A program made the position numbers and the translations under genes. From Fragilaria crotonensis (taxonomy: Eukaryota; Bacillariophyta; Fragilariophyceae; Fragilariales; Fragilariaceae), in the NCBI GenBank assembly GCA_022925895.1, contig JAKSYS010000023.1, forward strand, positions 153,630 through 217,629: a stretch of 64,000 bases of DNA, in the 5' to 3' direction. Within the stretch, counting starts at the first letter, position 1. Each line of letters begins with the position of its first letter. The notes under the pieces were generated by a model, which saw only the letters and a program-made list of their open reading frames with translations, had not been told where the DNA came from and did no database searches. Below, piece by piece: positions 58,720-64,000 of the stretch.

Positions 58720-59017
58720 CCACGAAATAAATTCCGAGTCTTGTCCAAATTTCTCTAAGTCCGTTTAGTCGGATGAGTCGTCTGCTTCGTGGTTTCGTCG
58801 TACCGTTGTCTCGCGCACTGTCGCGTCGATTCGTGTGTTGTCTGTGGTCATTCTCGTTTCTCTTTTGTGCTCGTGAGACTAGTAGAAATAAATAGATGGC
58901 ATCGGAATCTGGTCCTAATAGTTTGTCTCTCTCTCCTGGTTCGTCTCGCGGTGTCGGTCCCGTGATAGTTATCTAGCGGGGTCCGTCGCGCGATTGTGAG
59001 TCGACCTGGTTTCCGCC
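58720..59017. repeat. Direct repeat B2 of the YR retroelement
   Basis: 298 bp, nearly identical to 59259-59556. Differences are small indels, mostly in homopolymers (TTTG versus TTTTG, GGGG versus GGGGG) and a CG after ATTC. It starts CCACGAAATAAATTC and ends GTTTCCGCC. In element orientation (minus strand) it is the distal 3' repeat. Confidence 0.9.
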
Positions 59018-59258
59018 CCATGCAGAGCATGGCCAGGAGGTAACCGGCGCCAGGGCGCCGATGAACCTAGGCATCGGGCCAGGAGAGGAGGTGTGGGTGG
59101 GTGGGATTAACTAGAGTAGTGTCTTTGTCGATTCGAGTTCGTTCGGATTGTGAGCAATTCGTATCTTGTGTTGTGTTGTGTCGTGGTGTTCGTCTGTCTG
59201 TGTCTCGTGTTCGTCTGTCTGATGGCGACTGCCCGTCCTTTCCCGATCTTCGGACATG
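59018..59258. repeat. Spacer between direct repeats, candidate A2 repeat
   Basis: 241 bp between the two 298-bp copies, GC-rich at its start, with GGCGCCAGGGCGCCGATG near 59045. In PAT/Ngaro-type elements the segment here (A2) repeats the 5' terminal A1 sequence, which would lie beyond the right edge of the window. Confidence 0.55.
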
Positions 59259-59556
59259 CCACGAAATAAATTCAGTCTTGTCCAAATTTCTCTAAGTCCG
59301 TTTAGTCGGATGAGTCGTCTGCTTCGTGGTTTCGTCGTACCGTTGTCTCGCGCACTGTCGCGTCGATTCGTGTGTTGTCTGTGGTCATTCTCGTTTCTCT
59401 TTTGTGCTCGTGAGACTAGTAGAAATAAATAGATGGCATCGGAATCTGGTCCTAATAGTTTTGTCTCTCTCTCCTGGTTCGTCTCGCGGTGTCGGTCCCG
59501 TGATAGTTATCTAGCGGGGGTCCGTCGCGCGATTGTGAGTCGACCTGGTTTCCGCC
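59259..59556. repeat. Direct repeat B1 of the YR retroelement
   Basis: Second copy of the 298-bp repeat. The end of the tyrosine-recombinase reading frame (stop near 59507) lies inside it, so the coding region overlaps the internal repeat. Confidence 0.9.
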
Positions 59557-60656
59557 ATTTTCCGGTTGTCGTTCGTCCGCAGAATCTGGGGCGATCGTGT
59601 AGAAAGATTGTCGACTCGTCATGCGTGCGGCTACTCAGTGTCGAGTCCGGCACTTGAATTGGAGGTCTCATGAACGTCTGGCTTCGCCACCTCCCCACCA
59701 TCTGAATCGTCTCACTTGGAACTCCGGCGAGGTGCATGGCCATCGCGGCGCCTGATCTGATCGAGTGAGTGCCGATGCCACTCGCCTGGAGGCCAAGCCT
59801 CTCCTCCCTGCGAGTCGTCGCCATCCTGAGCTGCCTCAGTATGGACTTGGAAGAGATGTGTTGGGGTTCGAGTCCTGCGTCCTGACGGCGTTAATCTTCG
59901 GGTTCGTCCGTGAATGGCAATCGTAACTCCGTACCCTCGTCGTCAGGTCCGCTAGCACGCGGACGGGGCAGATGTCCGTTTGTCCCTGCCTGTCGTTTCG
60001 ATGCTGAGTCACTGTCGCGCCTTTGTCCCCGTTCTTTTGTCGCCGGAAGGTGATCGACACGTGTCGGCATTCTCCAGTTGTCCTCGGTCGATTGTCTGCA
60101 GGTCCTGTCCCTTCTGTCGGAAACGAACGTCGTCCACTCTGATCACTGATGTCGTCCGTCGGCTTCCGACATCGGAATATTCGCACGACCTCATGGCGAA
60201 AAAGAACGCGACCACCACAAGTTGTCCAATAGCGATGTCCGTCTCGTTTCTTGCCCAGGATCGAACCTTTCGAATCACCTCTAACGGCAGCGCCTGCTGT
60301 GGGGTAGGTCCTGGGTCCTCGTCGGCGTAACGTTTCAGTTGTAAAGCCAGAAGGGGGTCGAGTCGTCCGGCGGCGTCGTGGATTGGGCTCTCAAATTTGT
60401 TAAGCCTGAAGGCCTGAGCCACACCGTCGAGGGTGGCACGAATGGAACCGGACAAGGGTCCATTGCCAGCTTCCTGAGGTTGTCGGGGCGAAGCCGTCCG
60501 TCCCGAAGGGCGGCGGCGAAGCAGGCGAACGTTTCTGCTTTCGCTTCTCGTCCGAGTCCTTGGAAAAAGGCTCCCTCCCGACTCCGTCGATTCGTCCGAG
60601 GAATCTTTCGTAACAGCGCCAGCTGCTATCGCGCTTGGCACGGGTTGAGTCGGCAA
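59507..60656 (-). CDS. Tyrosine recombinase of the YR retroelement (frame-shifted)
   Basis: Three segments in different frames cover one recombinase. The first (60656-60009) has LKRYADEDPGPTPQQALPLE and the box I region FFFAMRSCEYSDV, with the catalytic Arg at 60191-60189. The second (about 60085-59836) has VSITFRRQKNGDKGATVTQH and CPVRVLADLTTRVRSY. The third (59824-59507) has GIGTHSIRSGAAMAMHLAGV, giving the catalytic His and Arg of H-x-x-R (59767 and 59758), then MVGRWRSQTFM. Such enzymes integrate a circular DNA copy without duplicating the target. At the place where relatives have the nucleophilic Tyr (FLRYI) this copy reads FMRPP, so it may be inactive unless an indel hides the Tyr. Confidence 0.82.
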
Positions 60657-62200
60657 GAGCTGCGTTTTGGGCAGCAGCTGCAGCCAGCCTCAATCTGCGA
60701 AATAAGGGCTGGCCGCAAAGGGATGATCCTGAAGTTCTGTGGAACAAACGGTGAGCAGTTTTTCGTGATCAAGTCTGTCAGTGCCGCGTCGTCTAGAGCG
60801 AAATCTCGGGAGAGCATGTCCGCCACCTTGTTCTCTTTCCCGGGAACCACTGCGTGTAGTGGTCTATCTCGTGCGTGAGGCAGAAATCAGCGAACGCTCG
60901 GGCTATCGTCAGGTGAAGCGGACAATCGTCGTTGAAGTTCGACTTAGCAAGCCATCCCGCTGCTGAGGTGCTGTCTCCTGACTGAGCAGAACGTCTTCGT
61001 CCGTCCACGCGGCCCCTTCGTGGAATTCCACGATCATCCCCACAAAGGCAGCAAGGAACTCGAGAGTGTTAGGGTCGCCCGCCCCAGCAGGTGCTCTGGT
61101 AGCTGATATCGCCACGCCAGGCCGCTCTTGAGGCAGTAGCCTCCGATGCCTTGTGGGCATCGTCCACCCTCACTATGCGCGTCGGCCACCGGCAAACCAG
61201 CCTGTTGATCGAGATACCTCGCGACGCCTTCTGAAGGAAAGCCTTCCACAGAATCAGGTCGTCCAGTTGGGGTTTGGTCAGTCTGCCTTCCCGGCCTGCT
61301 TCGAACGCTCGCAGGCCTTGTATAGCCTTCCCATAAAGTGTCTTGCGTGGGGATGACGTAGGCGGCGTGGCTAAAACGTCGAGGTCGTCTCTAGGTCTCT
61401 CGTCGTCACGAAGGCATGTCTGTGCGTCAGCATCCTGTCAACGGCTTGCGTCCAGCTCATGTGCTTATCGTGAGGCAGTGCGACGACGAAGCGGCGTGTG
61501 TCCACGATCCATCCGAGATCATCTTCCTCTCGGATGGTTTGGCCTCGGCCAGGAACTTTGGGATCGCAAAGGATATCGTCTCTGGGAAAAGTCTCCTTAA
61601 CCTCGGGGTCGCAAGGCCTCCCGACCAGGTGGAGCGCCAGCGGGATCGCGGCAGCGCTCTTTTCTGCGTCGCGGGGGTTGAAGGCCCCAAAATGTCGTCC
61701 AGGTAGCAGTCGAAGCGGGGAGGTCGTCGTAGGGTGGATAGTTCACTGCGAGTAGTCCGCCTTGCCGAAAACACTCATTTGTCGACCGACCCTTTGTCAT
61801 TGTCCACTGCCCCTTCGGTGTCCAGGAGGTGCTGGTGCGGCGAGTGGTAGACGCTCGGATCCCAGTCGTCCCTGCGGACAAGGTCGTTTGCCAAGTCCGT
61901 GATCATCTCCGACACGTCGCTCCATTCGCGATGGGTTTGGCGCTCCACCAGAACGTCATCCTCAGCGCCACTAACAGCAGGTCGTCGATACTCGTGCAGG
62001 ACTTCATGGCTGTGGCTGCTTTGAGATGGATTCGTCTGTAGGCGGATTTGCAGTCGACCTTCGTCATCCAGATAGGCTCGTCTGGCCATAGTTGGCGCAG
62101 GGCGAGATGTGGTACATGAGTCTGCTGAATGCTTTTCGAAGCGTGCTTCTGTCAGTTGGGATGTGTCCACGCGTTCATTTACGCTTCGTCCTGCCACTCG
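60626..62200 (-). CDS. Reverse transcriptase-RNase H of the YR retroelement (frame-shifted)
   Basis: RT landmarks in order on the minus strand: VDCKSAYRRIHLKAAT near 62070-62020, the catalytic YLDD in FDCYLDDI at 61705-61694, then a short connection. RNase H-like features follow: NTLEFLAAFVGMIVEFHEG near 61070-61010, DSTSAAGWLAKSNF near 60980-60940, LHLTIARAFADFCLTHEI and WFPGK near 60920-60860, and KVADMLSRDF near 60830-60800. The order RT then RH then recombinase is that of DIRS-order elements. At least four frame changes occur, so no intact product is encoded in the sequence as given. The enzyme would copy element RNA into DNA. Confidence 0.82.
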
Positions 62201-62437
62201 CTCGGGCTGAATGACTGGTCATGTGTGTCGGTCAGGTTTCTCTATTGAATTTCTTTCTCGTCGATCGACGTCTGCGCGACCATCCCCAGAGGCGCGACCT
62301 CGCATCCCTTGATCTCTAAGGCGGCTTCTCGCGGCGGTGGTAGCTGCCAACCTTGAGGCTTCGTCCTTCAGCATGGATATCAACTTTGCCTCGTGGCCTC
62401 AGGCCGATTTGTGATTGCCGCGAGCTAAGTTGGCGCG

Positions 62438-63690
62438 TCACGAGGCGGTCAGAATCCGAGATCTCGCGAAGCGGAACTCAGCCTTCGGAGATGCGCTCCT
62501 GAAAACGCGGCCAGAGGGTGGGCGGACAGGAGCGGGGCGAGAAGTTCGGTGGGGCGAAACTCGGATCCCGGCGTCAGGGCGCTGAACGGCTGGGCCCGAA
62601 GGGCGGCGTCGAGGTCGAGGGCGTACCGTTTGAGCACCGCGAGGTTGTGGCGGGCGGCGTCGTGCGTCCAGTCGAAGCGAAACTCCGTCGCGTGGGTGCG
62701 CGGTTGGCCGGAGTGCAAAATAGTGGCAAGGGCATCGGCCAGGCGTGGTTCGGGGAGTCGTGGGAACGGCGAGTCGACGTTCGGAGCAGGATCGTCGGCA
62801 ATGGCACCAGCGATGGGAACTTACCGGGAAGCGGGCGTGGCGTGTCTGCGAGGGCTGATGTCGGCGCGTCGTGGGCGTCTCCGGGCGACAATGCGCGCGC
62901 CACGGGTGGTCGGTCGGTGGCGAGTCGAGGGCGGGAGCGTAGCGCTCAGGCCCGACTTCGTTTCGTGACAGGTCGTCGCGGGCTGGCGAGAGATGCAGGG
63001 CGTCGGCGACATGGCGGGGCGAGAAGGTTCGTGCGCGTGGGTTCCCGCGGGACTGTCTCGAGCGGCAGATTCCGATAAAGTCGGGGCGTCCTACGTGGCG
63101 TCTGTTGTGGAACTCGGCCGTCGACCGTTCCTGGTCGAACGCCCATTGCGACGGCTGTGCGACGAAGGCGGGCTGGAAGTAAGCAGATGCAGAGGGTCCT
63201 AATTTTGTTTTCTTGCTGGGCGGCGTCGCGTCGGACGAGGGGCGCGCATGCGCGCCCGGCACTGCTCTATCCACGCTCGTACGGCGGTCGTCTGTTCGGT
63301 CGTGAGGGCGACGTCGGCGCTCAGAAACAGCTCTTGACGCACTTCCGTTTAGGTGCCACCTGCAGCACATGTTCGGGATCGGTCACTTCGGACGTGATCG
63401 AGGAACACCTGCCAAGTGTCGTTCGCGTCTCTCGGGAAAGGTCCTGCTGTGGGTTTGTGACTGCGTCCGCGGGTTGCCCGCGACGTCCGGCTCGAGCGCT
63501 CCCCGGCGGCTACAGGCTGCGAGTCGCCCTTTGGTCGACTCCGTCCCAGCCGCTCCTTGAGGAAGTCGCAGGCCGGGAAGACAAAGGCGCCGTCCTCCAA
63601 CTGCTGCCGGGTGGACCTGAATTCTAGGAGTGCTGGGTTGATCTCGTCCTCGTGTTCGACTCCAGCGCAGAGAACTAGGTATTGTTGCAT
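62438..63690 (-). CDS. gag-like and RT N-terminal region of the YR retroelement
   Basis: The most convincing segment is 62718-62449: DAARHNLAVLKRYALDLD, then SALTPGSEFRPTELLAPLL and SAHPL. This is the conserved region just upstream of the RT in this element family. Further out, 63690-63349 (HEDEINPALLEFRSTRQQLED, VFPACDFLKERLGR) and a KKTKLGPSASAYFQPAF segment may be gag. The 310-codon frame that covers 62438-63370 is mostly Arg/Pro-rich and reads like a shadow of the real frames. Assignment of gag is by position only. Confidence 0.5.
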
Positions 63691-64000
63691 GCGTTTTGAT
63701 GAACCAACCTAACCTGCACGCGGCTGAGGGTCAGCGTGCGCTAGCTGGCGGGCAATCGCCAGTGTGGGCCGACCGCCCTGGTCAGGAAACGGCTCCACTC
63801 GTCCAGCATATGTGTGAGGCGGGAATTGGCTCGAAAAGGGAGCTCAGCACTCGGCTCATGTTCTCGATCGCCGCGCGAGTTCGTGAAAATCTTTACGGCA
63901 CCGTAAAGTTGAGTTTGTCATGCTCTTGATGTCCTTCTCCGAGAAGCCCGTGGTCGTGTCGGTCGTCTTGAGTTGCATTTACCAGGGTGCTGGCGTGATC

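Follow-up and report, generated by a model that had tools for sequence, protein, structure and literature searches.

This locus raises the question of what kind of mobile element lies at the end of a contig of the diatom Fragilaria crotonensis, and whether its paired direct repeats form the terminus of a retrotransposon that uses a tyrosine recombinase (YR). The window, by which we mean the whole stretch of 64,000 nucleotides that was analysed (C164:153630–217629), ends on the last base of its contig, and the element copy is therefore truncated; ∼1.6 kb of its 5′ side, including the repeat A1, lies beyond the contig end.

The element copy in the window

The initial annotation placed a reverse transcriptase (RT, with YLDD), an RNase H and a recombinase in this order on the minus strand, followed by two nearly identical direct repeats. 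The order holds, but every coding frame of this copy is broken, as in most of the other copies listed, and of the three domains only the recombinase finds a match in the profile libraries, a weak one. Both repeats are present, at 58723–59017 and 59262–59556; they share blocks of 188, 60 and 40 nt with 100% identity at spacings of 537, 538 and 539, are identical apart from single-base indels and are not a product of chance. The spacer between them (59018–59258) had been read as A2, which is correct for 59105–59261, a sequence that recurs as A1, and incorrect for the 87 nt at 59018–59104, which do not recur there. The GC content is 0.56–0.63 per kb over 59001–64000 compared with 0.39–0.54 over 1–59000, in agreement with the higher GC relative to the flanking genes that had been pointed out. 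Two structure predictions from frames of the window had mean pLDDT values of 51.1 and 42.7 and were not used. The features of this copy, all on the minus strand, are as follows.

58723–64000, minus strand: YR retrotransposon, cut off at the contig end; complete copies elsewhere measure 6816–6945 bp
58723–59017, minus strand: B2, the outer 3′ repeat; element end CGAAATAAATTC on the plus strand
59018–59104, minus strand: putative hairpin-forming stretch of 87 nt between A2 and B2; no counterpart in A1; best conserved part between subfamilies
59105–59261, minus strand: A2; the same sequence forms A1 at the far end of complete copies
59262–59556, minus strand: B1, the internal counterpart of B2; its junction with A2 (59261/59262) is identical to both outer ends joined
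59648–60562, minus strand: tyrosine recombinase, spread over several broken frames; in copies L024 and L031 a single frame contains the complete catalytic boxes
60776–61159, minus strand: putative RNase H-like domain, from motifs only
61302–62251, minus strand: putative reverse transcriptase with CYLDD; 73-residue stretch between motifs B and C
62252–64000, minus strand: gag-like region, truncated in this copy; a CCCH-type motif is present in L034

Complete copies and repeat architecture

The assembly (62.1 Mb in 881 contigs) was searched with positions 58720–59560 and the best 40 of 146 candidates were scored. Among the matches listed, 30 are 97–100% identical over nearly the full length, the window included, seven are 89–90% identical and three are partial at 98–99%; the further copies that the initial annotation had proposed to look for thus number dozens of near-identical ones elsewhere in the same genome. 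Two matches (C322:30405 and C667:6579) start at query base 294, which is the B2 boundary, as if B2 were absent.

We examined 20 copy-bearing stretches of up to 10 kb each for A1. In 17 of them, the A2 sequence occurs again on the far side of the gag-like region, ∼6.4 kb upstream, where the match covers 153–154 nt of the 241-nt query; the exception is L021, an internally deleted copy of 5.05 kb in total, in which the match spans 144 nt and lies 4.5 kb upstream. The three stretches that lack A1 are L036 and L038, which end short of that place, and L028, which breaks off early, at the equivalent of window position ∼60476. Complete copies, 13 of which were measured, are 6816–6945 bp long. One of them, L026, contains two pairs of direct repeats of at least 25 nt (298 and 138 nt, both 100% identical) and no inverted pair of at least 25 nt, so that DIRS1-like inverted termini with an internal complementary region are not seen. 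It also lacks LTRs: the outer ends are A1 and B2 and not one direct repeat accompanied by a target duplication. The order of the element is A1, gag-like region, RT, RNase H, YR, B1, A2, the 87-nt stretch and B2, and the A1–ORFs–B1–A2–B2 architecture that had been predicted from the truncated copy is thereby found in 17 of the 20 stretches as well as in L026.

Termini, target preference and empty sites

The termini are sharp. On the plus strand, the element starts with CGAAATAAATTC and ends with GGACATGCCA, and the internal A2/B1 junction reads GGACATGCCACGAAATAAATTC, i.e. GGACATGCCA^CGAAATAAATTC on the same strand, which is the two outer ends joined. A low end was obtained for 48 of 52 loci (L011, L018, L031 and L070 were filtered out) and a high end for 35 of 40 (L028, L030, L036, L038 and L057 filtered out); once shared sites were collapsed, 28 low-end and 32 high-end flanks were distinct. 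Position -1 is occupied by A or T in 22 of the 28, position +2 by G or T in 29 of the 32 and position +3 by C or G in 27 of the 32. Binomial p values, which are uncorrected for the 24 positions and assume a background, amount to ∼0.0001 for both G at +2 and C at +3, and to 0.0055 for A at -1. The target is weakly preferred, in the form [A/T]^N[G/T][C/G].

Empty counterparts were sought by joining the flanks of 13 of 14 sites and scoring the best 40 candidates for each. Gapless matches spanning the junction with at least 96% identity were found for four of the 13. For L022, these are on C95 (240/240, 100%) and C214 (236/236, 100%); for L031, on C360 (242/242, 99%), with further matches on C98 at 92 and 88%; and for L027, on C135 (240/240, 96%), with another on C447 at 78%. 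L027 has A at -1 and its empty site has G, a difference that is unassignable at 96% identity. The fourth, L024, has nine matching places (233/233, 97%) among 38 overall at 88–97%, its element being inserted within another repeat. As these counterparts are gapless and 96–100% identical, insertion at the four sites took place without target duplication. The best match for L034 (92%) is one base longer than the query and the site is diverged; L029 and L039 gave only matches of 74–79%; and L021, L023, L026, L032, L033 and L040 gave no spanning match among the best 40 candidates scored, which says little.

Tyrosine recombinase

The recombinase is found in a single frame in L024 (417 residues) and L031 (430 residues), with AMRSCEY, HSIRSG, VGRW and RYLRIQ present, which we take to be the catalytic boxes of a tyrosine recombinase. 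The corresponding piece of the window matches PF00589 with E = 0.031, below the curated cut-off, and the values of 0.0019 (L024) and 0.0021 likewise fall under that cut-off; the recombinase also matches the PHROG 1 integrase with E = 0.0014. Genome-wide, PF00589 gives three matches, all under the cut-off. Two of these, on C40 and C722, adjoin B1–A2–B2 matches of the 90% subfamily described below, and the third is on C22. No DDE integrase family was matched in the element pieces scanned.

Putative reverse transcriptase and RNase H

The RT contains KVDCKSAYRRI, FGGAPNPSQW and CYLDD, presumably motifs A, B and C. Both it and the RNase H are putative assignments based on motifs recognized by eye, to which one indirect link is added for the RT. 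For either domain, Pfam gave no match at E = 10 and the comparison with solved structures returned nothing credible; the 111 RVT_1 matches found genome-wide all fall outside the element copies, as judged by comparing positions by eye, and three scans of the viral_contigs collection showed no relatives. The link runs through locus L089 (C82:89502–90248). The element RT matches L089 with 39.7 bits, whereas of 2000 shuffles 450 gave any match, the best at 27.3 bits, and L089 itself matches RVT_1 with 28.3 bits, or 31.8 bits together with its frame neighbours (cut-off 29.6). Evidence against it comes from hhalign, in which the element RT has a probability of 62.8% with L089 and 1.1% with an alignment built from three further RTs of the genome. 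Motifs B and C are separated by 73 residues in the element RT and 68 in L089 against 16 (counted by hand) in the gypsy-like L083, so that the element RT has about 57 extra residues before YLDD. In fungal YR elements, RT domains were detected by Pfam and CDD profiles only half as often as RNase H domains, according to the available text of PMC3783388; an RT that escapes Pfam is therefore not remarkable by itself.

L089 belongs to an RT family for which 125 matches were obtained at E ≤ 0.001; these are ∼26–82% identical to the query, the shortest pieces aside, and many have open frames of 500–1000 residues. The copies of this family are diverse and not near-identical, and like the element RT they have additional residues between motifs B and C. 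Eight loci with weak RVT_1 matches and long frames (L075–L082, on C153, C30, C168, C5, C224, C72, C125 and C114) were considered as relatives and rejected: their RTs belong to another type, without significant similarity to that of the element, and have GTGQGSA/GNSP...FVDD in most and FVDDTN in L080. Contig C880 carries more than ten RVT_1 matches within ∼90 kb, the strongest of the genome among them, and is possibly an organelle genome with group II introns.

Copy number, age and assembly quality

A probe of 1000 nt from the 5′ end, for which the best 40 of 124 candidates were scored, matches at least 32 places over 999–1000 nt at 98–100%, and a further 12 of the matches listed are partial or diverged. 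Distinct insertions number 32 or more. Across 105 pairs of near-complete copies, the median number of mismatches is nine (0–80) and that of gap openings 41 (18–107) over ∼6.9 kb; with L031 and L034 left out (91 pairs), the median is eight mismatches. The substitution level between copies is ∼0.13%. Because the copies differ by a median of only nine substitutions in 6.9 kb, the spread of the element is recent. Within 15 copies, B1 and B2 differ by 0–2 mismatches, and A1 and A2 by 0–3 (L021 excluded). The family comprises two subfamilies, the second of which (the 90% subfamily, e.g. L040) is 80% identical in the RT–RNase H protein.

The broken frames of the window copy probably reflect indels of the assembly. 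Real decay is unlikely to be their main cause, as gap openings (41) far exceed mismatches (9), also between contigs that hold one locus: L027 and L035, compared with host flank included, show nine mismatches and 78 gap openings over 9.8 kb. Contigs C208 (L027/L028), C641 (L035/L036) and C74 (L037/L038) represent this one locus, with two insertions 12.7 kb apart, and the assembly is therefore redundant. A tandem array, which the 12.7-kb spacing might suggest, was rejected since the flanks of the two copies differ and all three contigs represent a single locus. L028 lacks most of its element, which is present in L036 at the same locus.

The silicon transporter family PF03842 has 19 matches in this assembly, while one of 14 control genomes was matched, under the cut-off, and this marks the host as a diatom. 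Three of the matches follow one another in a single open frame of 1456 residues at C97:29749–33762, and a two-fold version is located on C771.

The 87-nt stretch between A2 and B2

The stretch is conserved between the subfamilies. Between L026 and L040 it is 96.6% identical, whereas the A and B repeats reach 88–90% and the coding part 72%. Sliding windows of 87 columns along these two copies number 6923, of which 131 reach the level of the one that starts the stretch; the best conserved are located in its second half and in A2 next to it. A hairpin pattern derived from it occurs at 35 places, 26 with the first-subfamily loop, which varies in length, and nine with the second-subfamily loop; the reversed control pattern occurs at none. 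When two sequences were compared for compensatory changes in the stems, the differences were seen to sit in the hairpin loops, and the structure is neither proved nor disproved by this. Folding is not exceptional (z = -1.41 for the 87 nt and -0.11 for 839 nt), and a known RNA was rejected, as the B1–A2–B2 region gave no Rfam match up to E = 5. The stretch probably acts in RNA, our guess being 3′ processing, priming or packaging.

Classification and proposed replication

We conclude, with a probability of roughly 0.9, that the element is a split-direct-repeat YR retrotransposon with a Ngaro-like structure and recent activity in this diatom. Among the features by which such elements are grouped in the available text of PMC4157794, PMC6681497 and PMC9210276, insertion without target duplication (four of the 13 sites searched) and a tyrosine recombinase in place of a DDE integrase are those of YR retrotransposons, while split direct repeats with the internal ones downstream of the recombinase and the lack of a methyltransferase match in the frames scanned are those of Ngaro-like elements. 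A PAT-like element of the DIRS group would carry the same split repeats, an RT related to that of DIRS and a methyltransferase. The repeats are indeed common to PAT-, Ngaro- and VIPER-like elements, as far as PMC6681497 could be consulted, and PAT-like families are present in the brown alga Ectocarpus (PMC12477816, in excerpt); however, no methyltransferase was matched in the frames scanned, and the RNase H and recombinase matches are only ∼210 nt apart, too little to accommodate one between them. The choice between PAT and Ngaro had been left open in the initial annotation; we favour the Ngaro/VIPER side and regard a PAT-like element as unlikely.

A VIPER-like element would agree with the missing methyltransferase and has the same described repeat order, but the accessible portion of PMC6681497 describes such elements from kinetoplastids, and we consider this assignment very improbable. 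It is hardly credible that the end of an LTR retrotransposon or a Crypton was misread as B1–A2–B2. Direct repeats near one end are what the window offers, and Cryptons are reported from a diatom in the text available of PMC3212892; unless they are assembly artefacts, the complete copies contradict both, the LTR reading through outer ends that are A1 and B2, the absence of target duplication at four sites and of a DDE integrase match in the pieces scanned, and the Crypton reading through the RT and RNase H motifs. The split-direct-repeat YR reading might be extended to a distinct diatom lineage, with an RT that would belong to a large, diverse family of RTs in this genome (sharing ∼50–60 extra residues before Y-x-D-D) and a conserved hairpin module between A2 and B2 needed for making the ends or for RNA processing, a proposal that we put forward only tentatively and think rather doubtful.

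For the Ngaro-like element, we envisage a transcript that would start in A1 and end in B2 and would thus lack the outermost ends. The RT and RNase H would copy it, and the internal B1–A2 junction could serve as the template that restores the ends, a step in line with the type of model published for such repeats. The YR may then recombine the end-joined DNA into the weakly preferred target.

Comparison with known systems

In the available text of PMC4157794, YR retrotransposons are called rare and poorly understood. Annotations of two diatoms, as excerpted, include YR-type retroelements, with 14 'DIRS' entries in Phaeodactylum tricornutum (PMC5859163) and Gypsy/DIRS1 in Chaetoceros tenuissimus (PMC8613185), but these are counts or genome shares without termini or architecture in the portions seen. 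In the titles and openings of abstracts that were searched, a scope outside which most subscription journals fall, no diatom YR element with described termini was found. YR elements have thus already been reported from diatoms and other stramenopiles, and the element described here is a well-defined addition. In this algal family, exact termini, empty sites and the end-joined junction are readable, a weak target preference and two subfamilies are recognized, and the spread is recent; models for the formation of split direct repeats are thereby directly testable.

The Ngaro-like element of Cafeteria burkhardae (PMC8547959, available text) is alike in its A1-[ORFs]-B1A2B2 arrangement, its length of ∼6–7 kb, its GC richness relative to the host and its order of gag-like region, RT–RNase H and YR, with no methyltransferase mentioned in that text. 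Its RT and RNase H match Pfam families, whereas those described here do not, and the present element differs from it in the extra RT residues between motifs B and C and in the 87 nt between A2 and B2 that are absent from A1. By description, the Ngaro and PAT-like families of Ectocarpus (PMC12477816 and PMC3145265, in part) are comparable as many-copy YR retrotransposons of a photosynthetic stramenopile, and the kinetoplastid VIPER-like elements (PMC6681497, in part) share the A1/B1–A2–B2 split repeats but differ in host group. The A1/B1–A2–B2 scheme, as set out in the literature text available, contains no hairpin module between A2 and B2, whereas the element described here has a putative one, and its conserved 87-nt stretch is a concrete and testable addition to that scheme.
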